Source: Candidatus Thioglobus sp. (GTDB taxonomy: Bacteria; Pseudomonadota; Gammaproteobacteria; PS1; Pseudothioglobaceae). From it: a DNA stretch of 64,000 bases. The stretch spans positions 112,739-176,738 of the forward strand of contig JAOMEO010000001.1 of the NCBI GenBank assembly GCA_028345955.1. Reading direction: 5' to 3'. The notes beneath the pieces were generated by a model. That model worked only from the letters and a program-made list of their open reading frames with translations, was not told where the DNA came from and ran no database searches. Positions within the stretch are counted from its first letter, which is position 1; every line of letters starts with the position of its first letter. Of this stretch, positions 5,205 to 36,512 are shown piece after piece. A program made the position numbers and the translations under genes.

Positions 5205-6113
5205 ATGAAATTTGAAGGAATATACACACCAATTGTCACTCCCTATGATGACAATCATGGCATCAATTACGACGCAGTTGAGGCCATTGTTGATGATCTC
5301 ATTAGTAGTGGTGTTCATGGCTTAATTGTAGCCGGCACTACCGGTGAATACTACTCCCAAGAGAAAGATGAACGCCTGCAGTTAATGAAAACCTGTAAGG
5401 AAGTTATTGACAATCGACTGCCCTTCGTTGTCGGCACGGGCGCTATTCGAACTGAAGATTCTGTTTTTTTTGCTGAAGAGGCGGCTAAGGTTGGAGCTGA
5501 TGCAATTTTAGTTTCAACTTCGCCTTATGCGCTACCGACAGAAAGAGAAAATGCACTCCACGCCCTTGCTATTGATCGAGCCGCAAATTTACCTATCATT
5601 CTATACAATTATCCTGGACGTACTGGTGCTATGATGGGTGCAGAATATCTGGATAGAGTTGGAAGGTCTTCTAATTTTTGCGCCATTAAGGAAAGTAGCG
5701 GTGATATTGACCGACTCCACTTATTGGCAAGAGATTACTCGCATTTGCAACTATGTTGTGGCATGGATGACCAGGCATTAGAATTCTTTGCTTGGGGTGC
5801 AAGCTGTTGGGTCTGTGCTGGCTCAAACTTTGCCCCAGAAGCACACGTTGCTCTTTATCAAGCTTGCCGAGTTGAGGGTGACTTTGATAAAGGTAGACGC
5901 ATAATGTCTGCAATGATGCCACTCATGAGAGTACTCGAACAAGGTGGCAAATTTATTCAATGTGTAAAACACGGATCAATAATGAGAGGTCTTCCGGTAG
6001 GTCCACCAAGAAAACCGTTACAACCACTCAACAAAGATGATAAACGCCAACTCGAGCAGGTCATCAGTGTCATGAACCACACGATTAATCTAATTACAAA
6101 GGAGGGTAGCTAA
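5205..6113 (+). CDS. dihydrodipicolinate synthase/N-acetylneuraminate lyase (DapA) family aldolase or deaminase
   Basis: GIYTPIVTPYDDNHGINYDAV, GTTGEYYSQEKDER, YNYPGRTG, CAIKESSGD (Schiff-base Lys). Confidence 0.85.
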   Translation: MKFEGIYTPIVTPYDDNHGINYDAVEAIVDDLISSGVHGLIVAGTTGEYYSQEKDERLQLMKTCKEVIDNRLPFVVGTGAIRTEDSVFFAEEAAKVGADAILVSTSPYALPTERENALHALAIDRAANLPIILYNYPGRTGAMMGAEYLDRVGRSSNFCAIKESSGDIDRLHLLARDYSHLQLCCGMDDQALEFFAWGASCWVCAGSNFAPEAHVALYQACRVEGDFDKGRRIMSAMMPLMRVLEQGGKFIQCVKHGSIMRGLPVGPPRKPLQPLNKDDKRQLEQVISVMNHTINLITKEGS

Positions 6114-7616
6114 ATGCCAGATTTACTAACTCACGAAGAATACCAAGCGATTGGGAAATCACTAGATTTTCCAACTAATGCTTTTATTAATGGGCAATTT
6201 CAAGCCTCAAAATCAGGCAACACTTTCGAAACAATTAACCCAGCAACGGGTCAAGTGATTGCCAAAATAGCTGCCTGCAATGCTGATGATGTTGAACATA
6301 CCGTCATTAAGGCACGAGAAGCCTTCGACCAAGGTCACTGGTCTAAGCTACACCCAAGTGAGAGAAAAGAGGCACTCATTAAACTTTCAAAACTCATTAA
6401 ACGAAACATACAAGAACTCGCTGTCATGGAAAGTATTGATTCGGGTAAACCGATTCGTGACTGTGTAACAATTGACCTTCCTGAGACCATTAATTGTCTT
6501 CTTTGGCATGCCGAAGCAGTTGATAAGATTTATGATCAAACCGCCCCTGCAGGTGAAGACGCGCTGGCAGTTATAGTTCGTGAACCAATAGGTGTAGTTG
6601 GCTGTGTTTTACCATGGAATTTCCCGTTATTGATGCTGGCTTGGAAAATAGCGCCTGCACTCGCTGCTGGTAACTCGGTTATTGTTAAACCAGCTGAACA
6701 AACCAGCCTAACAGCTCTTAGGATAGCGGAACTATCAATAGAGGCAGGCATGCCAAGAGGTGTTTTTAATGTACTAACAGGAATGGGTCCAGATGTAGGA
6801 CAGCCCTTAGGTTTACATCCAGATGTTGATATGGTTTCATTCACAGGTTCAACGGAAACTGGTCGTCGATTTCTACGTTATTCAGCTGACTCTAATCTGA
6901 AGAAAATCGTCCTTGAGTGTGGTGGAAAGAACCCAGCAATTGTTTTGGATGATGCCGAAGAATTGGATTTAGTTGCCGAACACTTGATCAGCGCCTCTTT
7001 TTGGAACATGGGCGAGAATTGTTCAGCCAACTCTAGGTTAATCGTTCAAGAAAACATTAAAGAAGCCTTGTTAGATAAAATGCTTGCCCATCTTCGTGAT
7101 TGGAAAACAGGAGATCCACTTGACCCTTCCAACTACCTTGGCTCTTTAGTTGATGTGGAACATTTCAAAAAAGTTTGCAGTTATTTGGATAACGACAACA
7201 TCATTACTGGTGGTGTCACTGAGAGCCCTTGCTATGTCCTGCCCACTATAGTTGATAAGGTTGATCCTAACTCTAAGTTAGCTCAAGAAGAAGTTTTTGG
7301 ACCAATACTCTCGGTAATAACTGTGAAATCATTTGATGAGGCAATCGCTGTTGCAAACAATACCGATTATGGTCTTGCTGCAAGTGTATTTACAGCCAAT
7401 GGCAAAAAAGCAATCAGGGCCGCAAGGTCAATTAAGGCTGGCACAGTAACAGTAAACTGCTATGGCGAGGGTGACATGAGCACACCATTCGGTGGCTATA
7501 AGCAGTCAGGCTTTGGCGGAAGAGACAACTCTATTCATGCACATGATCAATACACAGAATTAAAAACGATCTGGATAGATCTTTCCGACCGTGCTCCTGA
7601 AGAGTCTGTCGACTAG
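6114..7616 (+). CDS. aldehyde dehydrogenase (PuuC-like)
   Basis: LPWNFPLLMLAWKIAPALAAGN, LECGGKNPAIV, GENCSANSR, TPFGGYKQSGFGG. Confidence 0.85.
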   Translation: MPDLLTHEEYQAIGKSLDFPTNAFINGQFQASKSGNTFETINPATGQVIAKIAACNADDVEHTVIKAREAFDQGHWSKLHPSERKEALIKLSKLIKRNIQELAVMESIDSGKPIRDCVTIDLPETINCLLWHAEAVDKIYDQTAPAGEDALAVIVREPIGVVGCVLPWNFPLLMLAWKIAPALAAGNSVIVKPAEQTSLTALRIAELSIEAGMPRGVFNVLTGMGPDVGQPLGLHPDVDMVSFTGSTETGRRFLRYSADSNLKKIVLECGGKNPAIVLDDAEELDLVAEHLISASFWNMGENCSANSRLIVQENIKEALLDKMLAHLRDWKTGDPLDPSNYLGSLVDVEHFKKVCSYLDNDNIITGGVTESPCYVLPTIVDKVDPNSKLAQEEVFGPILSVITVKSFDEAIAVANNTDYGLAASVFTANGKKAIRAARSIKAGTVTVNCYGEGDMSTPFGGYKQSGFGGRDNSIHAHDQYTELKTIWIDLSDRAPEESVD

Positions 7617-7639
7617 CCTTACGATAGTAAGTGGCTAGT

Positions 7640-8986
7640 ATGATCCATCTCCCTGCCAACCCTGGGATCTCAGGCTGGAGAGAGATCCTGTCTCCTAGAC
7701 AGGCCCATAAACAATTGGATGAAAATCTGAATGCTGATTATCTTGTAATTGGTGCAGGTTTTGCAGGGCTCTCTGCAGCACGTCGCCTTAATCAATTACA
7801 GCCCGATGCCAAGATTATAGTATTAGAGGCTTGTGAGGTGGGTGAAGGTCCGGCTGGTCGTAATTCAGGTTTCATGATTGATCTACCTCATGACTTATCA
7901 TCTGACGATTATTTAGGCAGCGTTGAAAAAGATATTGAGCAAACACTTATTAATCGATCTGCAATTGAATTTGCAAAAAGTGCTTCCGAAGAGTATCAAA
8001 TGCCTTCAGAAGCACTACAACAAGTCGGCAAAACTAATGCGGCTGCAACCCCTAAAGGTATGGCTTTCAACGCCGACTATGCAAAACATTTAACCAAAAC
8101 AGGCGAGGATTATCGACTATTTGATGCCACTGAAATGCGTGACCTTACTGGTATCGACTATTATCAAGGGGGATTATGGACGCCCGGTGCCGCACTCTTA
8201 CAACCCGCTCTCTATATCCAAGGCTTGGCTGATGGTGTTTCACAATATTCAAATTTACATCTCTATGAAAACTCTCCGGTCATTGATTTGTTTGATGATG
8301 GTAAGCACGAGGGTCAGACAATTTGGAAAGCTAAAACTTTGGTCGGCTCAGTTGCCAGCCCTAAAGTCATTTTGGCTGTTAACGGTTTGATTGAAAAATT
8401 TGGATATTTTCAAAATAGACTGATGCATATTTTTACATATGCTTCTATGACCAGACAACTTAGCTCTGAGGAAGTTCGGAGTTTAGGGGGTCAATCTGAA
8501 TGGGCATTTACTTCAGCAGACCCGATGGGTTCTTCAATTAGGCGCTTGTCTGGAATAGGTGGTGATCGGATTGTGGTTCGCAATCGTTTTACCTATGATC
8601 CCAACATGGAAGTCTCACAATCACGAATGGCTGCGGTTTCCAATAGTCATATATCAGCCTTCAATGCTCGCTTCCCGATGCTAGACAAAGTATCGATGGA
8701 GTATTGCTGGGGAGGACGCCTATGTTTAAGTTTAAACAACGTCTTTGCACAGGGTGAGGTTGCAGAAGGAGTATATTCTGCATGCTGTCAGAATGGCCTT
8801 GGTACAGCTAAAGGTACGGCCATTGGAATTATCTCTGCCGAAAAAGCAAGTGGTACAAAAGAAAGCCTTGTTCCTAATTTTAAAACGGAAGAAGCACCAA
8901 AAAAACTTCTCCCAAAACCATTGATGTGGATTGGTGTTAATAGCTATATCCGCTGGAAAGAACTAGGCGCAGGAAAAGAAAAATAA
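7640..8986 (+). CDS. FAD-dependent oxidoreductase (DAO family, PuuB/OrdL-like)
   Basis: ORF 7631..8986 (GTG 7631; ATG at 7640 preferred). GAGFAGLSAARRL dinucleotide-binding motif, GPAGRNSGFMIDLPHDL. Confidence 0.8.
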   Translation: MIHLPANPGISGWREILSPRQAHKQLDENLNADYLVIGAGFAGLSAARRLNQLQPDAKIIVLEACEVGEGPAGRNSGFMIDLPHDLSSDDYLGSVEKDIEQTLINRSAIEFAKSASEEYQMPSEALQQVGKTNAAATPKGMAFNADYAKHLTKTGEDYRLFDATEMRDLTGIDYYQGGLWTPGAALLQPALYIQGLADGVSQYSNLHLYENSPVIDLFDDGKHEGQTIWKAKTLVGSVASPKVILAVNGLIEKFGYFQNRLMHIFTYASMTRQLSSEEVRSLGGQSEWAFTSADPMGSSIRRLSGIGGDRIVVRNRFTYDPNMEVSQSRMAAVSNSHISAFNARFPMLDKVSMEYCWGGRLCLSLNNVFAQGEVAEGVYSACCQNGLGTAKGTAIGIISAEKASGTKESLVPNFKTEEAPKKLLPKPLMWIGVNSYIRWKELGAGKEK

Positions 8987-10141: not shown

Positions 10142-11638
10142 TTACATTTTCTTCTTACCTTGTATGACTTGATCAAGTATTAAAGCGCAAAACAAGATGG
10201 CAATACCAGCCAAAATTCCTTGGCCCACATTTGCATATTGCAACGCTTCTAAAACGTCTTGCCCAAGCCCTTTTGCACCAATCAGAGAGGCAACAACAAC
10301 CATTGCTAAACTCAACATAACTGTCTGATTAACGCCGGCAAGAATTGTTGGCATAGCGAGAGGCAAGTCAACCTTTGTTAATAGATACCATTTAGAGGCA
10401 CCATAAGCTATTGCAGCCTCTCTTATCGCCTCAGGAACACCTCTCAACCCTAAAACTGTCAACCTGACTACAGGAGTTCCGCCAAAAATCATGGTAATAA
10501 TTACAGCAGAAACCTTTCCAGTTCCAAAAAAAGCAATTACTGGAATCATAAACACGAATGCAGGCATGGTTTGCATAAAATCCATTATGGGTCTAATGAA
10601 AGAATAAAATTTAGGTCTTGTAGCACAATAAATTCCAAGCGGGATTCCAATAGATATACTTAATATAGCAGCAGTACCCAATAAAGCCAAAGTTGTCATG
10701 GCCTTTACCCAAAACCCTAAAAAGCCCATATAAGCCAAAAATGCGAGAGAATAGATTGCAGCACGCGGTCCTGCAGAGAGTCCGGTCATTAATACTATTG
10801 CACTTATGACCACAACCCATGGCGTTTTAACAAATAACATTTCCAGTGAATCCAAGACACTTCTTATTCCATATGTGATGGCACTAAAAAGAGCATCACC
10901 CTTAATAACTGCATAATCAAAGGCCCCTTCTACACCATCTATTGAGGCAAGCCTTATATCTGGATGCGTAGGAAAGTCAGCAAACAACTTCACTAAATCT
11001 GGAAAACTATAGTGAATCGTCGAAAAGATAATAATTATCAGTGAAAAACTTATACTCAGCAGGTAATTTTTAAAATCCATTCCTGGACTGATAAGCTTAT
11101 TTGAAAGCCATTCAGAAAATCTCTTTTCTAAAATTGAATTGGCTAATACTCCTTGTAGCGATCTTATAAGAATAAATAAAACAATTCCTCCAATGGCAAT
11201 TGCAACTCCAGAAGCTTCTATACGTTGAGCCTCTTGTAAGTAGCCAGCTATTGAATCTTCCAGTGACTTGATCGTTCTTCTGAACATTTCTACTTTGTCT
11301 GAATTGCTTTCTATTGCAGCTTGGAGTTGTTTCTGTCGAAAATCAATCGTTGACTGAATTTGATCAATTTTTTTATAAGCCTCTATACTAATATTTCCAA
11401 AGAAGCCTCTAACAATTTGAACAATAGCAAAGGTCTCAATAATTAAAAATGCCAGTGACCAGTTCCATATATTTCTAATTCCAAACCATATTGAACCAAA
11501 TAAAAATGCTGATAAATTGAATGAAAGAATAAATTTTGAGGCATTGTTGATTCTCTCAAATTCATGAATATAGTAGTCAGGATTGGTCTTTACAAAATCT
11601 TTAATTCGATTTGTATTTAGATAGTTATTTTCACTCAT
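10142..11638 (-). CDS. glycine betaine/proline-type ABC transporter permease (ProW family)
   Basis: ORF 10142..11659, likely start MSENNYLN at 11638. BPD_transp_1-type region (LGIPLGIYCATRPKFYSFIRPIMDFMQTMPAFVFMIPVIAFFGTGK). Long N-terminal membrane/coiled extension. Confidence 0.85.
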   Translation of the reverse strand: MSENNYLNTNRIKDFVKTNPDYYIHEFERINNASKFILSFNLSAFLFGSIWFGIRNIWNWSLAFLIIETFAIVQIVRGFFGNISIEAYKKIDQIQSTIDFRQKQLQAAIESNSDKVEMFRRTIKSLEDSIAGYLQEAQRIEASGVAIAIGGIVLFILIRSLQGVLANSILEKRFSEWLSNKLISPGMDFKNYLLSISFSLIIIIFSTIHYSFPDLVKLFADFPTHPDIRLASIDGVEGAFDYAVIKGDALFSAITYGIRSVLDSLEMLFVKTPWVVVISAIVLMTGLSAGPRAAIYSLAFLAYMGFLGFWVKAMTTLALLGTAAILSISIGIPLGIYCATRPKFYSFIRPIMDFMQTMPAFVFMIPVIAFFGTGKVSAVIITMIFGGTPVVRLTVLGLRGVPEAIREAAIAYGASKWYLLTKVDLPLAMPTILAGVNQTVMLSLAMVVVASLIGAKGLGQDVLEALQYANVGQGILAGIAILFCALILDQVIQGKKKM

Positions 11639-12695
11639 CTTGACCCTCAACAACAGCAACTAATAAGTCTTTTTGAGATATGACCCCTATATCTCTACCG
11701 TCTGCATTAGTTATAACAATAGGGCTATCATTGGATACTGATTTTTCAATTAAACTACTTAAAACATCACTTTCATTCATTCTTACCGCATCTTTTGGAA
11801 TATCGCCATAACTCTTACTATATTCATCTATTGGCTTCATAATTGTATTTGCTTGTACAACTTGGAGTCTTGAAATCCCTTTCACAAAGTCCGCCACATA
11901 ATCATCCTCTGGCTTCAAGACTATTTCTTCAGGGGTTCCTACTTGAATAACTTTGCCATCCCTCATAATTGCAATACGATGGCCAACTTTAACTGCCTCA
12001 TCTAGGTCATGAGTGATAAAGACTGTTGTTTTTCTTAATTTTTTTGATAGCTTAATAAACTCTATTTGAAGCTGCCTTCTGATTAATGGATCTAGGGCAC
12101 TAAAAGGCTCATCCATTAATAATATCTCAGGATCAGCCGCCAAAGCTCTTGCCAATCCTACGCGCTGTTGCATACCTCCAGATAGCTCATGTGCATATTT
12201 ATTACCCCATCCTGTAAGTTCAACTGTATTTAAAATTTCATTCGCCTGTGCGTATCTTTTGTTTTTATTAATACCTCTAATCTCTAATGGCATAGCAATG
12301 TTATCAATTACAGATCGATGGGGCATTAAGGCGAAATTTTGAAAAACCATACCTATCTTTTTATTTCTAAATTCTTGTAGTTGATTTTTTTCAAATGCCA
12401 TTACATCTTGCCCATCAATTAAGATTTTCCCCAGTGTGGGCTCGAGCAACCTATTAATATGCCTTACAAGGGTTGATTTACCGCTTCCAGAGAGTCCCAT
12501 GACACAGAATATTTCTCCTGGATTAACATCAAATGAAACATCGGAGACTCCAATTACTGAGTTGTACTTCTCTAAAGCATCTTGCTTAGAAATATTCTTT
12601 TTAGTTATTGCTTCTAGTGCTTCAGGAGAATTGTTTCCAAATACCTTAGTGATATTTTGAATCTCAATGAAGCTTCCAGAGTTTTCAGACGACAT
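11631..12695 (-). CDS. glycine betaine/proline-type ABC transporter ATP-binding protein (ProV family, C-terminal CBS region)
   Basis: GLSGSGKSTLVRHINRL Walker A, LSGGMQQRVGLARA, LLMDEPFSALDP; C-terminal CBS-like DGRDIGVISQKDLL. Confidence 0.9.
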   Translation of the reverse strand: MSSENSGSFIEIQNITKVFGNNSPEALEAITKKNISKQDALEKYNSVIGVSDVSFDVNPGEIFCVMGLSGSGKSTLVRHINRLLEPTLGKILIDGQDVMAFEKNQLQEFRNKKIGMVFQNFALMPHRSVIDNIAMPLEIRGINKNKRYAQANEILNTVELTGWGNKYAHELSGGMQQRVGLARALAADPEILLMDEPFSALDPLIRRQLQIEFIKLSKKLRKTTVFITHDLDEAVKVGHRIAIMRDGKVIQVGTPEEIVLKPEDDYVADFVKGISRLQVVQANTIMKPIDEYSKSYGDIPKDAVRMNESDVLSSLIEKSVSNDSPIVITNADGRDIGVISQKDLLVAVVEGQDE

Positions 12696-12716
12696 AATAT
12701 TTATTTTTAATGAAAA

Positions 12717-12743
12717 AAAACCGGCGCCTAAAACGCCGGTTTT
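12717..12743 (-). terminator. intrinsic terminator/attenuator between the ProX-like and ProV-like genes
   Basis: AAAACCGGCG-CCTAAAA-CGCCGGTTTT; on the minus strand the stem is followed by a run of T (complement of gaaaaaaaa). Confidence 0.85.
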
Positions 12744-12760
12744 AAGACGAACTAGTTAAA

Positions 12761-13723
12761 TTATAAACCTAACCAGCCATCAACAGTACCTTCGTTTTGA
12801 GACATCCAATCTCTAGCAACTTCTGCAGGATCTCTCTTATTGACAGACACTTCATAAGCTAGCCATGAAACATCATCAGATGTAAGCTGGAAGTTATTGA
12901 AAAATTCAACAATTGCTGGTGACTTAGCTTCTAGCGAAGTGCCCCAACCAATTTGAATGTTCTTCAATGCATCCTTTGAAGCTACATATGATTTTGTATA
13001 CCAATCTGCATCAGTTTTTGGTTGAATCATTATGTATTTCTCAGGGTCATGAGTAGGCTCAGTCAACATAACAACATCAGCCATTCCCCAAATAGCGTGT
13101 GGCTTATAGCAGTAGAATGCATAGCCTTCACCTTTCTTAATTGAGTCTAATACTCGAGCATTTTTCACAGCTTCAGCAGCTCTAATTGGCTCAATTCCAG
13201 CATCAAGTAGTTGGTAATCTCTTACCTTTACTTCATTTACGTTTGCAGATGCCCATCCATCAGCACCAATCCAAAACTCGCCTTTACCGTTGCCATCACT
13301 ATCCATGGCAGCAACAACTTCAGGTCTACCAAGATCGAAAATTGAAGTTATATTCATCTCTGCTGCAAAAGCTTGCGAGACACAGTAACCTTGGTTTCCT
13401 TCGTAGCTTAGAGGACTTAACTTAAGTGTTCCTTTAGGTACGAGGTCATTAGTGTAGGCCTGTTGATTGGGAAGCCAGATATCAGGGTGAACTTCAATCT
13501 CACCTTTGCTCCTATCAATAGCTGCATAAATAGCTGTATTGTTTCCAGGAACAAGCTCCACTTCTCCGCCCATTTTATCGGTAATAACGGCAGACAGCAA
13601 GTTAGCAATTGCCGTTGCTCCTGTCCAACCTGGATCACCGATATTAACTTTTTCTGCATAGCTAGACATTGACATAGTCAATGCAATTAATCCTGCCATG
13701 CAAGTCTTACTTAATATTTTCAT
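12761..13723 (-). CDS. glycine betaine-type substrate-binding protein (ProX/OpuAC family)
   Basis: ORF 12761..13768; likely start MKILSKTCMAGLIALTMSMSSYA (signal peptide). OpuAC-like VNIGDPGWTGATAIANLLSAVI. Confidence 0.85.
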   Translation of the reverse strand: MKILSKTCMAGLIALTMSMSSYAEKVNIGDPGWTGATAIANLLSAVITDKMGGEVELVPGNNTAIYAAIDRSKGEIEVHPDIWLPNQQAYTNDLVPKGTLKLSPLSYEGNQGYCVSQAFAAEMNITSIFDLGRPEVVAAMDSDGNGKGEFWIGADGWASANVNEVKVRDYQLLDAGIEPIRAAEAVKNARVLDSIKKGEGYAFYCYKPHAIWGMADVVMLTEPTHDPEKYIMIQPKTDADWYTKSYVASKDALKNIQIGWGTSLEAKSPAIVEFFNNFQLTSDDVSWLAYEVSVNKRDPAEVARDWMSQNEGTVDGWLGL

Positions 13724-13940
13724 TTTTACATCTCCTTTACATATTAAATTGATACAAAACCACATCAAAATGCTTTCATTTTAGAAAAAAGTTCGCCCGA
13801 ATCAATTAATAAATTGAAGCAATTTGTTATTGTGGAAAGGGAATATTAACACGAAATTAACTATGATAAAACTTATATATAAAAAAGAAAAATAATAATT
13901 AAACTTAAAATAGAAAAGAAAAAAATTGATTATAGAAAAT

Positions 13941-14684
13941 TTAATATAGAAAATCTTTTACCATTTTATTAAATAATTTTGGTTTTTCCATGTGTGAATT
14001 ATGAGCACAGTTTTCAATGATCTCTAATCTAGAATCAACTATGCCTTTTTTTAATATTTTTTGCTGAGACCAATCATAAGAACGATCTTTATCTGACCAG
14101 ATAATAAGAGTTGGGCACTTAATATGTTTTAGTTGTTCCCTTCCATCCCAACACTCCCAAGCATCAAGACTAGCAAGTGCAGCTTGTGTTGAAGCCTTTT
14201 TACCTTCATCGATACATAAATTAAATCCATCACCAATTAAATAATCAATAAACCATGTTTTCGCTATATCTTGTCTAACTTTATTTAAACCAAATTTTTT
14301 AATTTTAGTTCTTGATTCATTTATGGTTTCAAATCTGTTGGGTAAAACTCCAATAGAGCCTGTTCCAAAACAAATTAACTTATTTATACGTTCTGGATAA
14401 AGAGCAGCCATTTCTTGAACTATCATTCCACCCATAGAATGACCGAGTAAATTAAAGTTTTCTATTTTTAAATAATCTAAAAGCTCAAATACTTGATTTG
14501 CATTTTCTTTTATTGTTGATGGCGCAGTCATATGAGAACTTTCTCCATAACCAGCCAAAGATGGCATGATTAAATCATAATCATTCTTTAATTCTTCCTG
14601 AAATTTCCACATGGATTGACCACCAAGATATCCATGAATTAATACTAGAGGATATCCGGTTCCTATTTTTTTATAAGACAACAT
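13941..14684 (-). CDS. alpha/beta hydrolase
   Basis: LIHGYLGGQSMW, LLGHSMGGMIVQE nucleophile elbow, late His (NCAHNSHMEKP). Confidence 0.8.
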   Translation of the reverse strand: MLSYKKIGTGYPLVLIHGYLGGQSMWKFQEELKNDYDLIMPSLAGYGESSHMTAPSTIKENANQVFELLDYLKIENFNLLGHSMGGMIVQEMAALYPERINKLICFGTGSIGVLPNRFETINESRTKIKKFGLNKVRQDIAKTWFIDYLIGDGFNLCIDEGKKASTQAALASLDAWECWDGREQLKHIKCPTLIIWSDKDRSYDWSQQKILKKGIVDSRLEIIENCAHNSHMEKPKLFNKMVKDFLY

Positions 14685-14693
14685 AATTAACTA

Positions 14694-15788
14694 TTAGTTA
14701 GGTGGGACCAAAACCAGTTTTCCGACATATTTTTTCGCCAAGAAATCTTTCTGCGCTCGAACAATATCTTTGAGAGAGTAGCTCTTTGCGATCAAAGGTT
14801 TGATTTCATTTCTCTCAATATAACCAATCAAATTTTCAAAAACTTCGCTGCTCTGAAAAGTACACCCTATAAACGTTAAATCCTTTAAATATAGAGTCCT
14901 AACATCCAATTCAACGATTGGCCCAGCAATCGCCCCTGCTGTTGCATAGCGACCGCCTTTCTTAAGCACCTCAAGTAATTCTCCCCATTTACTACCTGCA
15001 ACGAGATCAATCACTACATCTACGTACTCCTTACCCAGAATGTCAATTAAATTGTCCTCTCGTTTTACGACATGATCGGCACCAATACTTTTAACATCGG
15101 AGATTTTTTGTTCGTTAGTTACTGCGATAACTTTTGCTCCACGTCTCTTAGCTAACTGGATTGCAGCTGATCCAACGCCACCAGAGGACCCCGTAATCAA
15201 AACAGTTTCACCCTTACTAACATTTGAGCGCTCCAAGAGATTTTCAGCTGTTGAGTAGGCACAAGGAATAGAGGCTAATTCAATATCACTCCAGTCGCTC
15301 TCGATTTTATAACTTTCATCACTAAAAGCAACCATGAACTGTGCAAAGGCGCCATTGCATTCCGAGCCTACGGACCAGCTCTCAAAGGGCCGGTAGTCTA
15401 CTGCATATTGCTGCATGGTGCGTACTAAAACACGCTCACCTATTCGCTTACTATCGACCTGTTCACCAACTGCAACAATTTCACCATAGCAGTCTGCTCC
15501 CTGAATGATGGGAAAACTGAGAGGAACACCTGACCAACTTCCGTCATCATTCTCAGCATTATCAAAACCTTCAGCACCTCCAACACTTGTTTCACCTGTC
15601 ACCGATTTTGAATACCAGGCAGTACGTGTGTTGATGTCGGTATTGTTAATTCCTGCGCCCAAAACCTTAATAAGCACTTGATCTGAATTTGGACTAGGCA
15701 CTTCAACATCAGTGCGGAAATCCAAAACATCAAAACCGCCATGGCCAGTCGTTAAAACTGCACTCATCTTTTTTGGAATACTGATCAT
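14694..15788 (-). CDS. zinc-binding/MDR-family alcohol dehydrogenase-like protein
   Basis: GAGINNTDINTR, QGADCYGEIVAVGEQV, VLITGSSGGVGSAAIQLAKRRGAKVIAV. Confidence 0.8.
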   Translation of the reverse strand: MISIPKKMSAVLTTGHGGFDVLDFRTDVEVPSPNSDQVLIKVLGAGINNTDINTRTAWYSKSVTGETSVGGAEGFDNAENDDGSWSGVPLSFPIIQGADCYGEIVAVGEQVDSKRIGERVLVRTMQQYAVDYRPFESWSVGSECNGAFAQFMVAFSDESYKIESDWSDIELASIPCAYSTAENLLERSNVSKGETVLITGSSGGVGSAAIQLAKRRGAKVIAVTNEQKISDVKSIGADHVVKREDNLIDILGKEYVDVVIDLVAGSKWGELLEVLKKGGRYATAGAIAGPIVELDVRTLYLKDLTFIGCTFQSSEVFENLIGYIERNEIKPLIAKSYSLKDIVRAQKDFLAKKYVGKLVLVPPN

Positions 15789-15819: not shown

Positions 15820-17136
15820 TTACAGCAACAAGTCAGATTCGAAAGGGTAATTGGATAACACCTCGTGGCCCTTTTCAGTAATCAAAACCTGTTCCTCTAG
15901 TTTGACGCCTGGTCCACCATCATGGCGTCCGACATAGCTCTCCACGGTTAAAACCATTCCTGGTCTTATGACGCCATCATAACTGTTTTCATCCCACTCC
16001 CATGTGAAGGGAATGGCGGGATATTCGTCACACAATCCGACTCCATGATACAACATCGAATAGTGTCGAAACTCACTTTTCGGGTACTCCCTACAAGAAA
16101 ATGACAACTCTTTAAAGGTAATACCTGGTCGTAATATCTCTAAATTTTGTTGAACTTGTTCGTAAGCCATAGTATAGATTTCTTTTTGTGCTGAACTTGC
16201 AGACTTATCACCACACATCCAGGTACGAGAAATGTCGGTACAGTAACCGTACGCACCAACTAAATCTGTATCAAAACCTATTAACTCTCCATTCTGAATA
16301 GGGCGTGAGGAGCATTCGTGATACCATGGATTAGCCCTGGGGCCGGCCGCAAGTAGACGCGTCTCGATCCATTCAGCTCCTCTAGAAACAGCCTCCATTT
16401 GGAAATGACTCCAGAGTTTTTGCTCAGTAATTCCAGGTTCAGAATGGGAACGCATTAACTCAATAGATTTTTCACAGGCAAATATAGAGCATCTCATTGC
16501 AACGATCTCTTCTTCCGATTTGATCAACCTTGCCAATTCCATCACCTCCTCACCATTAGCTAGCTCCAAGCCTAGCTCTTCAAGCTGATGAATACCCTCA
16601 GTTGCGCAATGATCTAGAGCCAATCGTTTATTGCCATGACCAAACTGAGCAACTATTTCTGCAATCTCCTGGGCCCAGATTTTGGCCTTGCGTTTGCTAA
16701 ATTCACCCGCAAGAAAATACAGATAGGTAATCGCTGTACGCACTTCCGTTATTAGTGGGTTATGGTTAGAAAGAAACTCATTTCCTTCAAACTCGAAAAT
16801 AATCACAGGACCTTGTGCCATTACTAAAGCGTATCGTGCTGCGTTATGCGATGTCCAGGCAGACATATTTGTGCTGTCTATTGCATAGCGAATATTGACT
16901 GGATCATAGAGTAGAATACCGGCACAATCAAACTCAATCAATTTATCACGAACCCTTTGTAATCGGTACTCCCGAATACTTGTCATGTTCGGACTTACCA
17001 ATCCAGCCTCTACCCACTCGGATTCTGCAAGAGCGCCTGGACCGAGCGCATGTTTATTTAGACTATAAATATCTTCATCACCTGCCGCTTGAGAGGCAAT
17101 TTTCGTTTCATACTTTTTGTTTTGTTTAAAACTCAT
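15820..17136 (-). CDS. M24 metallopeptidase-fold protein, DddP (DMSP lyase)-like
   Basis: Motifs NIRYAIDSTNMSAWTSHNAAR, GAEWIETRLLAAGPRANPWYHECSSRPIQNGELIGFDTDLVGAYGYCTDISRTW, YHGVGLCDEYP, VLTVESYVG, VKLEEQVLIT; matches my recollection of the DddP family with M24 metal ligands retained. Confidence 0.7.
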   Translation of the reverse strand: MSFKQNKKYETKIASQAAGDEDIYSLNKHALGPGALAESEWVEAGLVSPNMTSIREYRLQRVRDKLIEFDCAGILLYDPVNIRYAIDSTNMSAWTSHNAARYALVMAQGPVIIFEFEGNEFLSNHNPLITEVRTAITYLYFLAGEFSKRKAKIWAQEIAEIVAQFGHGNKRLALDHCATEGIHQLEELGLELANGEEVMELARLIKSEEEIVAMRCSIFACEKSIELMRSHSEPGITEQKLWSHFQMEAVSRGAEWIETRLLAAGPRANPWYHECSSRPIQNGELIGFDTDLVGAYGYCTDISRTWMCGDKSASSAQKEIYTMAYEQVQQNLEILRPGITFKELSFSCREYPKSEFRHYSMLYHGVGLCDEYPAIPFTWEWDENSYDGVIRPGMVLTVESYVGRHDGGPGVKLEEQVLITEKGHEVLSNYPFESDLLL

Positions 17137-17153: not shown

Positions 17154-19568
17154 TTAACGCATTTTCGACCCACTTGGATCGTATAGTGGTTTCATAATAA
17201 CACTCGCTCGATGAAACTTACCTAATATCTCCACTTCAAGCTCAGTATCCTCGTCAATTAATTCAACTGGCAAGTATGTCATCGCTAGTGATTTACCAAC
17301 TGAATGACCATAACCACCTGAAGTAACATAGCCGACACATTTATCATTATGCATCACAGCCTCATCTCCGCTGACTTCAGTTTCTGTTTCAATCTCAATG
17401 ACTGATAAATGTTTACTTGGGCCATTCTTTTGTTCTTCCAAGGCAGCATCTTTACCAATAAAGTCTTTATTCCAGTTTACAAAAAAATCAAGACCAGATT
17501 CCATTAAAGTAAAGTCAGGTCTAAAATCCAATGTCCAAGCGCCCCAACTCTTTTCTAGTCTCATTGACATTAATGCTCTTCCACCAAACCACTTCACATC
17601 TAAATCTTTTCCGGCCTCTTCAATCTCTTCAAATAACTTCAACTGGTATTGAGGAGCTACATATATTTCATAACCAAGCTCACCAGTAAAGGAGAGTCTG
17701 ACACATAAGGCTGGAACGCCTCCTATAAATGTGTCTCTAATATCACGGAACTTGAAAGCATCAGAGCTGACATCTTCTCGAGTCAGTCTTGACAATAATT
17801 CTCTAGAATTAGGCCCAGAAATTGCAATGCCATGAAAGTCGTCTGTCATGTTTTTATAAATAACATCATTAACTCCTTCTAGATGTTTTTCAAACCAACG
17901 AAGATGCATATTTTGTGCGACACTTGAACCGAACAAATAGTAAGTTTCATTATCAATACATGCAACTGTTAGATCGCCATTCAACTTACCACTCTCAAGA
18001 AGCATTGGCGAAAGGTTGACCCGTCCACTCTCAGGCATATGGCCTGCAAGAATACGATTCAAGAAAGCCCGAGCACCACTACCAGTAAATTTATGATTAG
18101 CAAAACTAGCAACCTCACTTGCTCCAAGGTTTTCACGAACAGCCTTGACTTCTTGTGCAACATATTCATGTGACCTTGACCTATGAAAAGTTGGGTCTTC
18201 ATAAGCATCCTCAGGGGAATCAGCAAACCAAAGTACATTTTCTAATCCAAAGGTATCTTGCCATACGGCACCTTTTTGGGTTAAACGGTCATATATCGAT
18301 GTTGTTTTTTGGCGTCTACCTTTTGGCAAAGTTTCGTTAGGGAAGGTCATCACAAAGCGACGCTCATAATTTTCAGACGACTTGATTACACCCCATTGAG
18401 GCGTTGCAAAGTCACCAAAGCGAGCAATGTCCATTGCCCAAACATCCACCGAAGGTTCACCTTCAATCATCCATTCAGCTAGAGTCTTTCCAACTCCACC
18501 AGCTTGACAAAAGCCAGCCATCACACCAACAGCAGTCCAGTAGTTTTTAATACCCGGGACAGGTCCAATCATTGGGTTACCATCTGGAGAAAATACAAAC
18601 GGACCATTGATAATGTTTTTAATACCTGCAGTACCCAGTGCGGGAATACGCTCAAATGCCAATTCTAGTCTATCAGCAATACGGTCCAGTTTTGGATCCA
18701 ATAAATCATGTCCAAAATTTTGTGGCGTTCCGTCCAATGACCACGGGGTTGAAAGAGGCTCATAGGTTCCCAATAACATGCCAGTATTTTCCTGACGCAA
18801 ATAAATATTTGCTTCAAAGTCAATGCAATGCGGTAAACGACGGCCTTCAGGTAAATTGGCAATCTGTTCAATTTCTTCTGTAATTAAATAATGATGCTCC
18901 ATTGGAACAACAGGTAAGTGAACATTAGCCATTCGACCAACCTCACGCGCCCACAATCCACCTGCGTTGACAATATGCTCTGCATGAATATTACCCTTTT
19001 CAGTGATCACATCCCAAGACCCATCAGGCCTTTGATTGGTCTCTATGACTGGCGTATGAGTGAAGAACTCAGCACCATGCACACGCGCTGATTTAGCATA
19101 AGCATAAACAACGCCAGAGGGATCAAGATCACCATCAGTCGGATCCCAAAGTGCCGCAACATAATGTTCAGGATTGATCAATGGATGCTTTTCTATTACC
19201 TCGTCAATAGATACAAACTCTTGATCTAATCCTATCGATCTAGCTTTTGAGCGTTCTCGCTTTAGGTAGTCATGCCAACTTTGATTAGAGGCCAAGTAAT
19301 AGCCGCCAGTTTTGTGCATGTTGATTGAATGACCAGAGGTCTCTTCAATTTCCTTATATAAACTGATTGTGTAGTCTTGAAGCTTGGAGACATTAGGATC
19401 TGAACTAAGTGTATGAAATGAACCAGCAGCATGCCAACTAGAGCCCGAGGTTAGTTCATTGCGTTCCAGTAAAACGACATCTTTCCAGCCCATTTTTGCT
19501 AAATGAAACAAAATAGAGCAACCAACCACGCCACCGCCAATAACGACTACCTTAGCATGTTCCTGCAA
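17154..19568 (-). CDS. FAD-dependent oxidoreductase with C-terminal GcvT-like domain (dimethylglycine/sarcosine dehydrogenase family)
   Basis: 804 aa. N-terminal VVIGGGVVGCSILFHLAKMGWKDVVLLERNELTSGSSWHAAG, C-terminal GcvT-like folate-binding region (GISGPNSRELLSRLT, GELGYEIYV, GGRALMSMRLEKSWGAW). Confidence 0.85.
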   Translation of the reverse strand: MQEHAKVVVIGGGVVGCSILFHLAKMGWKDVVLLERNELTSGSSWHAAGSFHTLSSDPNVSKLQDYTISLYKEIEETSGHSINMHKTGGYYLASNQSWHDYLKRERSKARSIGLDQEFVSIDEVIEKHPLINPEHYVAALWDPTDGDLDPSGVVYAYAKSARVHGAEFFTHTPVIETNQRPDGSWDVITEKGNIHAEHIVNAGGLWAREVGRMANVHLPVVPMEHHYLITEEIEQIANLPEGRRLPHCIDFEANIYLRQENTGMLLGTYEPLSTPWSLDGTPQNFGHDLLDPKLDRIADRLELAFERIPALGTAGIKNIINGPFVFSPDGNPMIGPVPGIKNYWTAVGVMAGFCQAGGVGKTLAEWMIEGEPSVDVWAMDIARFGDFATPQWGVIKSSENYERRFVMTFPNETLPKGRRQKTTSIYDRLTQKGAVWQDTFGLENVLWFADSPEDAYEDPTFHRSRSHEYVAQEVKAVRENLGASEVASFANHKFTGSGARAFLNRILAGHMPESGRVNLSPMLLESGKLNGDLTVACIDNETYYLFGSSVAQNMHLRWFEKHLEGVNDVIYKNMTDDFHGIAISGPNSRELLSRLTREDVSSDAFKFRDIRDTFIGGVPALCVRLSFTGELGYEIYVAPQYQLKLFEEIEEAGKDLDVKWFGGRALMSMRLEKSWGAWTLDFRPDFTLMESGLDFFVNWNKDFIGKDAALEEQKNGPSKHLSVIEIETETEVSGDEAVMHNDKCVGYVTSGGYGHSVGKSLAMTYLPVELIDEDTELEVEILGKFHRASVIMKPLYDPSGSKMR

Positions 19569-19690: not shown

Positions 19691-20686
19691 CTATTTTATC
19701 TGAGCTAAAATATCCACACCTTGTTGATGCCAGAAATGTAAAAAATCAATAAATATCCAATTTTCGGATAACTTATCTCCTTCCCGTCGATACATATCTA
19801 TAACACGCATGTCAACAGGTTTGGCTTGCGTAGGCATTCCCATATACTCACCTGTAGGTGTCAAGGTTAGATTTGGCCAACCAAAAAAGCCACCGAATTT
19901 TCCTTCGGCAAATCTACAAAGATGCCCATTAAATATACGATCTGTAAAAGCAGCACGAAACGGTCCCGAATGTTGCTCAGCATAACGCTCTATTGTGTAC
20001 GTTGCCCCGATGCCTGCAGGACCCCACCAGATCATATCTTCATGCCAGCTTCTTCTAAGTTCTTCAACTAGGGGTAGTTTTTTTGGATCTTTCCAATTCT
20101 TCAGATCATTGACCATGAAATCTATTGCAGCTAGAGTTTTCTCACCTTCTTTAGGATCCTGCTCTTCAAACATCACACCATCATGTGTCATTGGTCCTGG
20201 CTGCACCAAGTGAGCTGCAGTTTTAGTTGGGAAGGGCCGCAAACCCGCCTGCATCATTAGATGAGGAATGTCAAAGAACATTGCTGTTTCTGTGATCTTC
20301 CCATGCTCGATTTTGTTAAACTCGCAGTAGCGCAAAAAAATCATTTTGCCTGTTGGGGCAATACCTAACCACTCATTATCAAACAGGCCCACCAAGTGCC
20401 CCATTGAGGTGACCCATACAGATTCAGAACCATCAATTTCATTACGACCTGCCATGAAAATATCCATGCGACGTTGCATATGTCGCAAAGCATGGCGTAG
20501 TGGTTGCCAAAAAAGTTCTGACACTGCCTTAGCGCTTGATTGCTCATTAAAGGGATGAAACCCACGCCAGATATAATGATCATCTAAGTATCGTTCCATT
20601 ACCTTAGTAATGTTGTTTTTTGATGCTGTATCTAGCTCTTGATAATAATTTAGAACTAACTGCTTTTCGCCCTGGTAGTTGCTCAT
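19691..20686 (-). CDS. double-domain NTF2/SnoaL-like protein (paralog A)
   Basis: 331 aa with two internal NTF2-like halves; shares motifs with 24165..25145 (HPFN, RRxDIFMxG, SMGxxVGxF, LRYxEF, DIPxLM, WHxxMxWxGP, GWPxLT, ENWxFxD). Confidence 0.7.
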   Translation of the reverse strand: MSNYQGEKQLVLNYYQELDTASKNNITKVMERYLDDHYIWRGFHPFNEQSSAKAVSELFWQPLRHALRHMQRRMDIFMAGRNEIDGSESVWVTSMGHLVGLFDNEWLGIAPTGKMIFLRYCEFNKIEHGKITETAMFFDIPHLMMQAGLRPFPTKTAAHLVQPGPMTHDGVMFEEQDPKEGEKTLAAIDFMVNDLKNWKDPKKLPLVEELRRSWHEDMIWWGPAGIGATYTIERYAEQHSGPFRAAFTDRIFNGHLCRFAEGKFGGFFGWPNLTLTPTGEYMGMPTQAKPVDMRVIDMYRREGDKLSENWIFIDFLHFWHQQGVDILAQIK

Positions 20687-20707: not shown

Positions 20708-21589
20708 TTATCCCTTGACAGCTCCCGCCGTAAGTCCACTCACTAGCTGTCTTTGAAAAAACATCACTAGTATAAATAAAGGGATTATAGCTGAAACAAC
20801 GGCTGCAACTGCAAACATGACATTACCCTCTGTTTGAGTTGTTCCCATAAAGCTATTAATTTTAGGGACCATCGTTTGATTTTCCTGAGATAGCAACATT
20901 GCAGTAATAGCAAAATCATTGTAGGCCAAAAGGAATGAAAAGAGTCCAGCTGTAATTACTCCTGGCCACATAATAGGAATTATGACATGCTTAAATGCTT
21001 GGAACTGGGTGCAACCATCCACTTTAGCACTTTCATCCAATTCTTTTGGAATTTTCTGAAAAAATGAGTGCAGCATCCACAAGGTAAATGGTTGATTTAT
21101 TGCAACTAAAACAATGATGGTAGTTGGCAGGATTCCCCATATGTTCCACTGAAAAAATGGTAATAAATAACCTGAAACTAATGTGATTGGCGGTAATGCG
21201 CGGAAAATAAGCGCAATAATTAATAGCCAAAATGCATAACGAAAACCAGAGCGTGATAAAGCATAGCCACCGAGTGTCGCAATGGTTAATGAAGTAAGTA
21301 CAGTAAAAAAGCACACTATGCCTGTATTACGAAAAGCTCTCCAAAACTCTTCCTGTATCCATGCACCGTCGTAGCCCGCACCTGTAAAAGCTTTACCATA
21401 TACAACCTGAGTCCTCGCACCTGAAATTGCATTTGTCCAGTCTGCCTTTGAGAAAAAATCAAGCTCTACCTTGAACGATCCCCATACGGTCCATAAAAAT
21501 GGAAAAGCCGCCAAAATAAACCAGAGCAGAACAAATCCATATATCAATATTTGAAGCCCTAATGGTTTTTTTATTTGGGTGGAAGACAT
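20708..21589 (-). CDS. carbohydrate-type ABC transporter permease (MalG/UgpE family)
   Basis: Membrane protein; EAA-loop region KELDESAKVDGCTQFQAFKHVIIPIMWPGVITAGLFSFLLAYNDF. Confidence 0.9.
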   Translation of the reverse strand: MSSTQIKKPLGLQILIYGFVLLWFILAAFPFLWTVWGSFKVELDFFSKADWTNAISGARTQVVYGKAFTGAGYDGAWIQEEFWRAFRNTGIVCFFTVLTSLTIATLGGYALSRSGFRYAFWLLIIALIFRALPPITLVSGYLLPFFQWNIWGILPTTIIVLVAINQPFTLWMLHSFFQKIPKELDESAKVDGCTQFQAFKHVIIPIMWPGVITAGLFSFLLAYNDFAITAMLLSQENQTMVPKINSFMGTTQTEGNVMFAVAAVVSAIIPLFILVMFFQRQLVSGLTAGAVKG

Positions 21590-21593
21590 ATAA

Positions 21594-22619
21594 TTATCCC
21601 TTCGGGTTGAATTCGCGCCAAGTCCTAACTAGAACTGGAGCCAGAAGTATAGAGACGCCAATAATTGTTAAAACTGATGTAGTTGCTGCTGAAGAAAGCA
21701 GACGTGTCTCACCCCCAAGGTCATTATAAATAATCCAAGAAAGGGAGGTTGCATGGGCCTCTGCATGAAATCCAATTATAGGTTCGAACACGCGGAAATT
21801 ATCCATCAGCTGCATTAAGGCCACAAAAGCCACCAAGGGCACTAAATGAGGAATAACGACATGGAAAATCTGCTGAAAACGGGTTGCTCCATCAATCATC
21901 GCGGACTCAAGTGTCTCCTTTGGCACAGTTTGAAGTCCAGCATAAAAAACAATGAAGGCAAAAGGAGCTGCATGCCAAATACCATAAATAATTAATGTAA
22001 CCCATGTTAATCCTGTAGAGGCCTTTAGGGATAAGTCAGGGTTTTCGAGTAAAACCTGAAGCCCTGTTCCAATAATGCCTCGAGAATCAATCATCCAAAA
22101 CAAGATAAGTGAACCAATCAAAGGCGTTACAATCATCGGCAGAAGAGAGAAAAATATCATCAGCCCTTTCAAGCGCTGATGCAGTGAATTGACAGCTAAA
22201 GCAATTAAAAATCCGACTAATATAACCAAGGGCGTCACTACAAAGGTGAACGTCAATGTAAATCCCATTGCGCGATAAAATGGAAGATTCTTAAGGGTGG
22301 AAAAAAAATCACCCAAGTCAGAACTACCTCTCCACATCTCACCAACCTCTGTAATTGCAAGGTGGCCTCTGTCAAAATAGATTCCGAGTCCAGCCCATTG
22401 ACCTAAAGGCTCAGCTTCATACAATTCCTGAGTTAACGTGTGATCAATTTGCGTTTGAGAAGTACAACCAAATGGGTCGCAGTTTTCAACAGTTATTAAA
22501 ACCTTATCGTGAGGAACATGAAAGGACTGCGATACCACTGATACTAGTGGCAAGGCTATAAACAAAAACATTGCCATGGCAGTGGGTAAAAAGAACCAAA
22601 AAAATGTCTTATGTTTCAT
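21594..22619 (-). CDS. carbohydrate-type ABC transporter permease (MalF/UgpA family)
   Basis: KETLESAMIDGATRFQQIFHVVIPHLVPLVAFVALMQLMDNFRVFEP. Confidence 0.9.
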   Translation of the reverse strand: MKHKTFFWFFLPTAMAMFLFIALPLVSVVSQSFHVPHDKVLITVENCDPFGCTSQTQIDHTLTQELYEAEPLGQWAGLGIYFDRGHLAITEVGEMWRGSSDLGDFFSTLKNLPFYRAMGFTLTFTFVVTPLVILVGFLIALAVNSLHQRLKGLMIFFSLLPMIVTPLIGSLILFWMIDSRGIIGTGLQVLLENPDLSLKASTGLTWVTLIIYGIWHAAPFAFIVFYAGLQTVPKETLESAMIDGATRFQQIFHVVIPHLVPLVAFVALMQLMDNFRVFEPIIGFHAEAHATSLSWIIYNDLGGETRLLSSAATTSVLTIIGVSILLAPVLVRTWREFNPKG

Positions 22620-22662
22620 CGAAGTTTACAAAGTTAGTGTGGTTACCATATTACAGAAAAAA

Positions 22663-22686
22663 AGAGGGGTGTGTGTACACCCCTCT
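22663..22686 (-). terminator. intrinsic terminator/attenuator downstream of the SBP gene
   Basis: Perfect 10-bp stem AGAGGGGTGT-GTGT-ACACCCCTCT; on the minus strand followed by TTTTTTTCTG. Confidence 0.85.
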
Positions 22687-22712
22687 GGAGGAAATTACCT
22701 AACAAAAAAATC

Positions 22713-23942
22713 TTATAGGTAACCTTTTTCTGTCGCAGCTGCTGTATATGCCGCTTCTACATCAGCTAGAGCAGTAGTCGCATCTTCCTTGCCCATCATA
22801 AAGTCAATTATCTCAGCACCTAAGGCTGAATGTAGTAGACCTTGATAAGACACCATCGGATATGGTTTTGTGCCCATTTGAGCTGCAGCAACAACGCCAC
22901 GAGATGCAGCAGTTGGCTCATAACCTTCGATCAGCCATACAGCCAGCATTTTAGTTTCATCATTCAACATTTCAGGACGAACCGCGTGCTTCATTGCAAG
23001 GAATGTTGCCTCAGCATCTTCGTCAGAAATATTCTTGGCTACAGTCCAACCATCCCACCAAAGTGTTGATGCCGGAATAGAACCACCGCCAACAGTCATA
23101 GGACCAGCTATATCTGTATTACTAGCTACTTCTGCCGCTACTTCATCACTCTTAAGTGGACCTACACGAGAGCCCCACATATTCATAATAGCAACGTTAC
23201 CTGCTTTCCATTCAGCACTTGTTGCATTTGAATCATGTGTAAGGTAGTCAGGGTTCATAAAGTGTGACAATGCTTTCATCATGTGTAATGCATCGACACC
23301 AGCTTGGTTGTTAATTGAAACCTGAGCTGTACCTGGCTCAAAGAATTCACCACCATGTCCAATGTACATGTTTACAAATTCTTCAGCTATATTCCAGCCC
23401 GCTTTGTAAGCACCACCAACTGGATTCTGCATTAAACCCATATCACGGATTATCGCTGCAGCAACCAACATCTCTTCGTATGTTGTTGGTGGATTTAGGC
23501 CAGCTGCTTCAAGTATGTCAGCACGGAAAACCAAGTGCTGAGCATTAGCCATAAAGGCTACAGCCATTATATTGCCATCCACAGTTACTAACTGGTGTTT
23601 CTGTATATCTTGCCCATGCTTAGCAACAAGGTCATCTAATGGTCTGATGACATCATCAACCATTAATGCAACAATAGATGAATTAGCAATTATTGCTGTT
23701 GTATATTCTGCCGGGTTGCCGGTCATACCTTGGACATTAATTTTTTGATGGTCTGCGGTCAAGTTTTTGGTAACCTCGACACCACCACCTGCGCATTCTG
23801 CTGCCGCTGATCCTACTGCTTGAATTGCAGGAAATTCGTTACCAACGATACTAACACGTCCGTCGCTGATACCACAACCTGCCCAAACACTAGAAGAGAG
23901 GGCTGCAAATGCTATAGCAAATGCTATTTTTTTCTTTAACAT
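22713..23942 (-). CDS. extracellular solute-binding protein, carbohydrate-type ABC transporter (family 1-like)
   Basis: Signal peptide MLKKKIAFAIAFAALSSSVWA; adjacent to MalF/MalG-type permeases; NATSAEWKAGNVAIMNMWGSRVG typical of SBP_bac_1. Confidence 0.85.
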   Translation of the reverse strand: MLKKKIAFAIAFAALSSSVWAGCGISDGRVSIVGNEFPAIQAVGSAAAECAGGGVEVTKNLTADHQKINVQGMTGNPAEYTTAIIANSSIVALMVDDVIRPLDDLVAKHGQDIQKHQLVTVDGNIMAVAFMANAQHLVFRADILEAAGLNPPTTYEEMLVAAAIIRDMGLMQNPVGGAYKAGWNIAEEFVNMYIGHGGEFFEPGTAQVSINNQAGVDALHMMKALSHFMNPDYLTHDSNATSAEWKAGNVAIMNMWGSRVGPLKSDEVAAEVASNTDIAGPMTVGGGSIPASTLWWDGWTVAKNISDEDAEATFLAMKHAVRPEMLNDETKMLAVWLIEGYEPTAASRGVVAAAQMGTKPYPMVSYQGLLHSALGAEIIDFMMGKEDATTALADVEAAYTAAATEKGYL

Positions 23943-28724: not shown

Positions 28725-29696
28725 TTATCCTGTTTTTAGAATAATTTGTTTCCAAATTGCGGTCTCATCAAATACAACGTATTCACGACGTAGACCCCAA
28801 GGACCAAATTCTGCATGAGAAATACCCATCAAATATAACTCTGCACCGCTTGGCTCCCCAAACAAACCCAAACCATCGTGTTTTCCTTTTAAAGTCCATC
28901 TGACTGCAGCCCTTGGAGGCATCATTGAATCTGCACGTCCTATCTGATGTTCAATCGCAAAAGATGCACTTGGAAAAGATGATCTCAAGCCCATCCAAAA
29001 GGCTTCAGCATTCGCATAAGAGTGGCCTGTAACGCCACTTGGATACTCCAATTGACAGGCACGGTCATATTCTTTACGAATAATTAATGTGTCAGAATCC
29101 ATAATACGATTAAGAATATTGCTGTATTTTTCGCCCCATTCGTTTTTATTGCCTTTTCCGTTATAGGGTCCGGGTTGATCAATTGAGGGTGAAAATGGCC
29201 GTACACACTTATCTGGACCACCCTCATGATCAATTTCCTGTCTTGCAAAATTCTTAGGCGTCCATCCCATTTGAAGAACCATAGAACCACGGTCGCGTGT
29301 AAGCCACTCATCGTTGATTTGATTATTAATTGCATGACAGTCAGCAATAACTCGATAGGTCAACTTTTTACCGGTTGCTTTACCGAACTGGCCGTCACCC
29401 AAATGTGTTGCTGTAGATATAATACGATGCGAAGATAACATACCTTCTTCAGGGGAGCCTGACCAGATAACATCTTCACCAATAAGTTTCCTATCTGGGA
29501 ACTCTAATAATGTCGCTTCAGTAGCTGCAATGACGCCCTCATTGCCAATAATGATGGACGAAGGTGTTCTCATTACAACATCGGAAGCATAATACTCGTG
29601 CAACTTTTCTACACCATTCTCCTCTTCCCAGATCTCATAGGTAATGCCGTTTATATAATCAGGAAAATTTTCAAATTTCGAATTAAAACCATTCAT
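28725..29696 (-). CDS. SnoaL/NTF2-like protein (two-domain, divergent paralog C)
   Basis: 323 aa; SnoaL-like pattern LHEYYASDVVMRTPSSIIIGNEGVIAATEATLLEFPDRKLIGEDVIWSG. Confidence 0.6.
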   Translation of the reverse strand: MNGFNSKFENFPDYINGITYEIWEEENGVEKLHEYYASDVVMRTPSSIIIGNEGVIAATEATLLEFPDRKLIGEDVIWSGSPEEGMLSSHRIISTATHLGDGQFGKATGKKLTYRVIADCHAINNQINDEWLTRDRGSMVLQMGWTPKNFARQEIDHEGGPDKCVRPFSPSIDQPGPYNGKGNKNEWGEKYSNILNRIMDSDTLIIRKEYDRACQLEYPSGVTGHSYANAEAFWMGLRSSFPSASFAIEHQIGRADSMMPPRAAVRWTLKGKHDGLGLFGEPSGAELYLMGISHAEFGPWGLRREYVVFDETAIWKQIILKTG

Positions 29697-35480: not shown

Positions 35481-35599
35481 TTCGTATTATGTGAAATTTA
35501 TAACGGAAAAAGTATAGCACACCCTTTGTTCAGCAGTAACATATTTAAATCTCAATTTATTTTGTCTAAAATGAAAAGTCTATATTTGGAGAAATTACT

Positions 35600-36511: not shown

Positions 36512-36512
36512 A

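Follow-up and report, generated by a model that had tools for sequence, protein, structure and literature searches.

A DddP-like M24 metalloenzyme of Candidatus Thioglobus lies outside the bacterial DMSP lyase clade and is probably part of betaine catabolism

The window, a 64,000-nucleotide stretch of contig JAOMEO010000001.1 from Candidatus Thioglobus sp., contains an intact, ATG-initiated gene for a DddP-like M24 metalloenzyme (Table 1). The gene lies in one co-directional run with genes for a LacI-family regulator, a UgpC-type ABC transporter, several SnoaL proteins, a HisD-like protein, and an SDR, and its immediate neighbors are the two that an earlier note on this DNA had named, an MDR-family dehydrogenase and an FAD-GcvT fusion protein. 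Promoter and terminator scans of the window returned matches at chance level only. The HisD-family protein scored 433 bits against TIGR00069 and, being in a catabolic operon, is probably not a biosynthetic histidinol dehydrogenase. The operon also includes a short MetE-like protein of the core-MetE type, whose function in aerobic marine bacteria is considered an open question (PMC12478193). A cluster adjoining the betaine region, which encodes a GbdR/CdhR-like regulator, a BKACE protein (DUF849-type, by eye), and a carnitine 3-dehydrogenase (724.6 bits; cutoff 592), was read as carnitine catabolism. Beside the betaine transporter, a PLP enzyme scored 434.8 bits against D-cysteate sulfo-lyase CuyA (cutoff 450); from this match, it may be a sulfonate-degradation gene.

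Table 1. Features of the window around the M24 gene (positions count from the first letter of the window).
Feature	Position	Strand	Remark
DapA-family - ALDH - FAD oxidase block	5205..8986	+	
PLP enzyme	9137-10117		beside betaine transporter
ProW, ProV, ProX, glycine betaine/proline-type ABC transporter	10142..13768	-	172 bp downstream of co-directional run
Alpha/beta hydrolase	13941..14684	-	9 bp from MDR gene
MDR-family dehydrogenase, PIG3/quinone-reductase-like	14694..15788	-	31 bp downstream of M24
DddP-like M24 metalloenzyme gene	15820..17136	-	intact ORF, ATG start, 438 aa
FAD-GcvT fusion (DAO + FAO_M + GCV_T + GCV_T_C), dimethylglycine/sarcosine dehydrogenase-like	17154..19568	-	17 bp upstream of M24
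SnoaL/NTF2-like protein of conserved cluster	19691..20686	-	
Carbohydrate-type ABC transporter: two permeases and solute-binding protein	20708..23942	-	
Further SnoaL/NTF2-like proteins in operon (SnoaL calls partly by eye)	24165-25145, 28725-29696, 32813-33298		
Short MetE-like protein	26590-27723		inside operon
LacI-family regulator	29696..30730	-	within co-directional run
HisD-family protein	31491-32801		
ATPase of carbohydrate-type ABC transporter	33317-34369		
Carnitine-type cluster	34518-37991		adjoins betaine region
MttB-family (PF06253) paralogue	37988..39529	-	other than cassette MttB

DddP is a climate-relevant enzyme that releases dimethyl sulfide from DMSP, and the M24 protein resembles it in fold, length, N-terminal extension, and sequence motifs. 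Among solved structures, it is nearest to the DddPs from Ruegeria lacuscaerulensis (4RZY/4S00/4S01; 376 bits) and Roseobacter denitrificans (4B28; 358 bits), at 41-43% identity over 94% of its length. The phmmer match to R. lacuscaerulensis DddP (4rzy; residues 25-436, E 1.7e-111; 42.7% identity, 97% coverage) is far beyond chance. The DddP-type motifs that the earlier note had picked out (RYAIDSTNMSAW, EWIETRLLAAGPRANPW, FDTDLVGAYGYCTDISRTW, and HGVGLCDE) all occur in the reading frame, and its statement that every M24 metal ligand is present was borne out: the six DddP ligands as listed in PMC4108388 (D295, D297, D307, H371, E406, and E421 in R. lacuscaerulensis numbering) are conserved as D289, D291, D301, H364, E399, and E414. 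The proposed catalytic residues Y366 and D377 correspond to Y359 and D370 of the window protein, and DddP Trp95 is kept as Trp94. An AF2 model (pLDDT 78.5, from 15 sequences) had R. lacuscaerulensis DddP as its best fold match (TM 0.85; 4s01/4b28), but its confidence drops to under 50 in two loops with DddP signature motifs (residues 89-98 and 263-274), and the model was therefore not used to argue about the pocket.

The automatic NCBI name of its relatives, "Xaa-Pro peptidase family protein", would instead make this an ordinary Xaa-Pro dipeptidase or aminopeptidase, a reading that accords with the M24 fold and with the PGAP name on plasmid relatives. The next-best solved match is indeed a prolidase; however, at 70 bits it lies ~300 bits behind DddP. 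The DddP-type Asp297 ligand, Tyr366, and Asp377 are moreover retained almost throughout, R. lacuscaerulensis DddP is inactive on Val-Pro (PMC5395565), and the gene has a conserved linkage to demethylases, all of which make a peptidase highly unlikely.

Despite its likeness to DddP, the window protein belongs to a separate clade. Against the NCBIfam DddP equivalog NF043017 it scored 461 bits, 139 short of the cutoff of 600; the canonical DddP of genome G020 scored 639 bits and exceeds that cutoff. In a maximum-likelihood tree of bacterial DddP-like proteins, the canonical core formed a clade with support of 100/98.5. This clade A comprises the canonical copies, both solved DddPs, and sequences from Oceanimonas, Psychrobacter, and Aliamphritea, whereas the window protein fell into clade B with Chloroflexota and Acidimicrobiia; clade C comprises Mesorhizobium, Aminobacter, Roseibium, Ahrensia, and Kiloniella. 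Forcing the window protein into the canonical core cost 349 log-likelihood units and was rejected (AU p ~5e-181, run without the outgroup L002, which was a wrong ORF). The earlier note had named placement outside the functional clade beforehand as the outcome that speaks against a true DddP, and this is the placement we obtained. The separation is also visible at single sites: no clade A sequence departs from Phe155, Gly282, Pro283, and Ala407, and His333 occurs in 12 of the 13, while the window protein, in common with most of clades B and C, carries F155W, G282S, P283S, H333Q, and A407S.

Forms like the window protein are common in the genus (~455-478 bits against the DddP equivalog), and one of its genomes, G020, holds three paralogues: its canonical DddP, a window-type form (470 bits), and a third protein (274 bits). 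The M24 protein at locus L062 is nearly identical to that of G016. The third paralogue (L055:9119-10321, L056, L057) shares ~35% identity with the window protein, and its L055 copy adjoins apparent gcvT-gcvH-gcvP genes.

A true but divergent DddP, converting DMSP (or DMSOP) to DMS (or DMSO) and acrylate with the MDR enzyme handling the acrylate, deserves consideration, since identity, fold, metal ligands, and catalytic residues all agree with it. Identity alone is no ground for denying DMSP activity, since RdDddP and a functional DddP from a fungus reportedly share just 32% identity (PMC4108388). The window genome (1.25 Mb, 81% complete) also uses DMSP, given a DMSP demethylase DmdA that scores above cutoff (421 bits), and one canonical DddP has the same neighbors as the window gene. 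The clade placement, the equivalog shortfall, and the changed residues at clade-invariant sites nevertheless argue against a lyase, as does the lack of the acryloyl-CoA reductase AcuI, which is a supporting and not a defining trait of a DMSP lyase: no AcuI was found in the 81% complete genome, where the best match reached 57 bits against a cutoff of 440, and at that score the MDR gene beside M24 is ruled out as AcuI. An AcuI-like protein (~328 bits) occurs in only three of 29 genus genomes. Terrestrial Mesorhizobium and Rhizobium relatives with betaine genes count against it too, and we regard a true DddP as unlikely. A Labrenzia aggregata dddL mutant lost ~97% of its DMSOP lyase activity (PMC10686828), which suggests a small contribution from clade C, but only if that strain carries a clade C gene; we set this result aside as evidence. 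The earlier note had left two options standing, a DMSP lyase or an enzyme for another methylated substrate. The family likeness and catalytic residues behind the first option hold, but the AU test and equivalog score disfavor a true lyase, and gene context across several lineages favors the second option, with a substrate of the betaine type.

That context centers on two demethylation genes, MttB and FAD-GcvT, which recur beside M24. Among genus relatives the typical order is ABC - GMC - SnoaL - MttB - FAD-GcvT - M24 - MDR. The window genome has its orthologue of the cassette MttB (G000:C1:206313-207833; 86% identity to the cassette MttB of G006) on the same contig, ~76 kb off and outside the window, among what by eye are rpsB/tsf-like genes. 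In G020, similar surroundings hold MttB together with a canonical DddP (L054:9683-12667), where the window genome has MttB only, which suggests that DddP was gained or lost at one fixed site. Linkage was counted by tblastn with fixed references on fetched flanks. FAD-GcvT adjoins M24 in 20 of 22 window-lineage loci, some of which are one genome reached twice; in clade C, where most loci are Mesorhizobium and not independent, MttB was found in 46 of 50 loci and FAD-GcvT in 45 of 50. Only one of 11 clade A loci had either partner, namely L054, whose canonical DddP has both. The cassette MttBs of the window lineage and Mesorhizobium share 53% identity; with the window's other MttB paralogues the figure is 36-40%, so the linkage joins related partners.

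The three-gene cassette also occurs in Mesorhizobium, Roseibium, Kiloniella, and others, with both demethylation genes linked to M24 in most of the Rhizobiales/Stappiaceae relatives, and on annotated plasmids FAD-GcvT homologues and MttB flank M24 in S. meliloti and in Parasedimentitalea, there with soxBDAG. Composition does vary: in G020 and G001, another MttB paralogue stands in the cassette position; in two Acidimicrobiia, MttB adjoins M24 and FAD-GcvT is not with it; and no demethylase of this kind lies near M24 in several members of clade B (Chloroflexota, Denitromonas, Wohlfahrtiimonas). Annotated clade C neighbors (PhnD-like, fatty acid desaturase, HTH) do not narrow the substrate. We found no description of an MttB/FAD-GcvT/M24 cassette in the literature.

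Alternatively, M24 may belong to the LacI and carbohydrate-ABC half of the operon and act on a sugar-like compound, a sulfonate, or a lipid head group, with the demethylases as mere neighbors. LacI, the UgpC-type transporter, and the HisD-like, SDR, and SnoaL genes do form one co-directional run with M24, but clade C and the plasmid relatives retain demethylases beside M24 and not the LacI/ABC set, and in G020 and G001 M24 occurs with MttB and MDR with no adjoining ABC genes. We therefore consider this very unlikely.

A second type of demethylase adjoins M24 relatives on plasmids of Rhizobium and Paraburkholderia (Burkholderiaceae), where Rieske proteins and reductases take the place of MttB and FAD-GcvT; their best NCBIfam matches are GbcA (389-410 bits) and GbcB (320-339 bits), both below the equivalog cutoffs. 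The Rhizobium leguminosarum 248 cluster continues with 4-hydroxyproline epimerase, ProXWV, a DapA - ALDH - FAD oxidase block, and formaldehyde-detoxification genes. The window shares this DapA - ALDH - FAD oxidase block, gene order included (61%, 63%, and 49% identity), and its ProXWV genes, with a ProV 50% identical to that of the Rhizobium cluster, lie between this block and M24. Two proteins of the Rhizobium betaine cluster (L165:1682-2287 and 4039-4734), annotated as DMSP lyase and DMSP lyase family and adjoining ETF and formaldehyde genes, had no match in NCBIfam and are possibly misnamed.

Because of this Rhizobium synteny, proline or hydroxyproline betaine is a leading candidate for the substrate class. 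The relatives have an enolase-family neighbor that scored 360 bits as a cis-3-hydroxyproline dehydratase (cutoff 500), with 2ps2 as its best solved match (582 bits). It matched the hydroxyproline betaine epimerase structures 2pmq/4h2h more weakly (166 bits). Since this enzyme is nearer to cis-3-hydroxyproline dehydratase, and since no Pro_racemase/hydroxyproline epimerase was found in the 81% complete window genome, hydroxyproline betaine is only a candidate.

The window genome also has parts of a known betaine system. The Mtg corrinoid system demethylates glycine betaine in Ruegeria, and its authors noted further MttB paralogues with unknown substrates (PMC12478193). Proteins like MtgC and MtgD (NCBIfam) are encoded here with MetF-like and DUF1638-like neighbors (by eye), and MttB-family genes are present; however, the published MtgB/MtgC/MtgD system has no M24 member, and the window-type cassette MttB is another paralogue. 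Other M24 proteins that are not peptidases, creatinase and ectoine hydrolase DoeA/EutD, also use the pita-bread fold for the breakdown of osmolytes or N-methyl compounds, but they share only 15-17% identity with the window protein and match its fold more weakly (TM ~0.65).

Taken together, we think it reasonably probable that the M24 protein is a DddP-fold, dinuclear-metal enzyme, on a branch apart from the ratified bacterial DMSP lyases, in an operon that degrades a carboxylated quaternary-ammonium compound (a betaine); the protein is probably not a DMSP enzyme. The best reading is that M24 is a member of a betaine-catabolism module whose demethylase part is exchangeable. We infer the substrate class (a betaine or its demethylation product) and the reaction, modeling the latter on the mechanism put forward for DddP, in which the metals take the carboxylate, Trp/Tyr take the onium group, and an Asp serves as base. 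An MttB-type enzyme would hand one methyl group on to MtgC, a corrinoid protein, and to MtgD, and FAD-GcvT would transfer further methyls to tetrahydrofolate. The M24 metals would bind the carboxylate of the substrate, Trp94 and Tyr359 would hold the onium group, and Asp370 would act as the base with which M24 would break a carbon-nitrogen bond of the betaine or a demethylated intermediate.

Several points count against the betaine reading. All proposed DMSP-binding and catalytic residues are conserved, so DMSP chemistry is possible judging by sequence. At L054, a canonical DddP stands with MttB and FAD-GcvT, and the cassette is thus not exclusive to non-DddP clades. The clade B members without a nearby demethylase and the lack of a hydroxyproline epimerase in the 81% complete host genome also weigh against it, and the carbohydrate-type ABC transporter and LacI regulator in the operon could signal another substrate. 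To our knowledge, moreover, the known routes for proline betaine and glycine betaine need no M24 step.

Clade placement bears on how dddP is counted in the ocean. A Tara Oceans survey counted dddP at ≥40% identity and ≥70% coverage (PMC10686828), and the 40% identity cut was likewise used in PMC6309047. The window protein passes this 40%/70% rule, as do all sampled members of clade B (35 of 35) and clade C (50 of 50). Since these proteins lie outside the DddP clade, gene-based DMS potential may be inflated, and such genes should be named dddP only after filtering by tree or by residue. If M24 proteins of this kind form a betaine family, a notable share of the dddP in ocean surveys would be betaine genes, and aerobic betaine breakdown would gain a candidate extra enzyme step. 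More tentatively, and at somewhat less than even chances in our judgment, M24 enzymes of Gamma-, Alpha-, and Betaproteobacteria, Acidimicrobiia, and Chloroflexota may share an unrecognized activity that cleaves a carbon-nitrogen bond in betaines or in the products of their demethylation, with DMSP-cleaving DddP as a specialized offshoot. This would give DddP a testable origin: recruitment from betaine catabolism.
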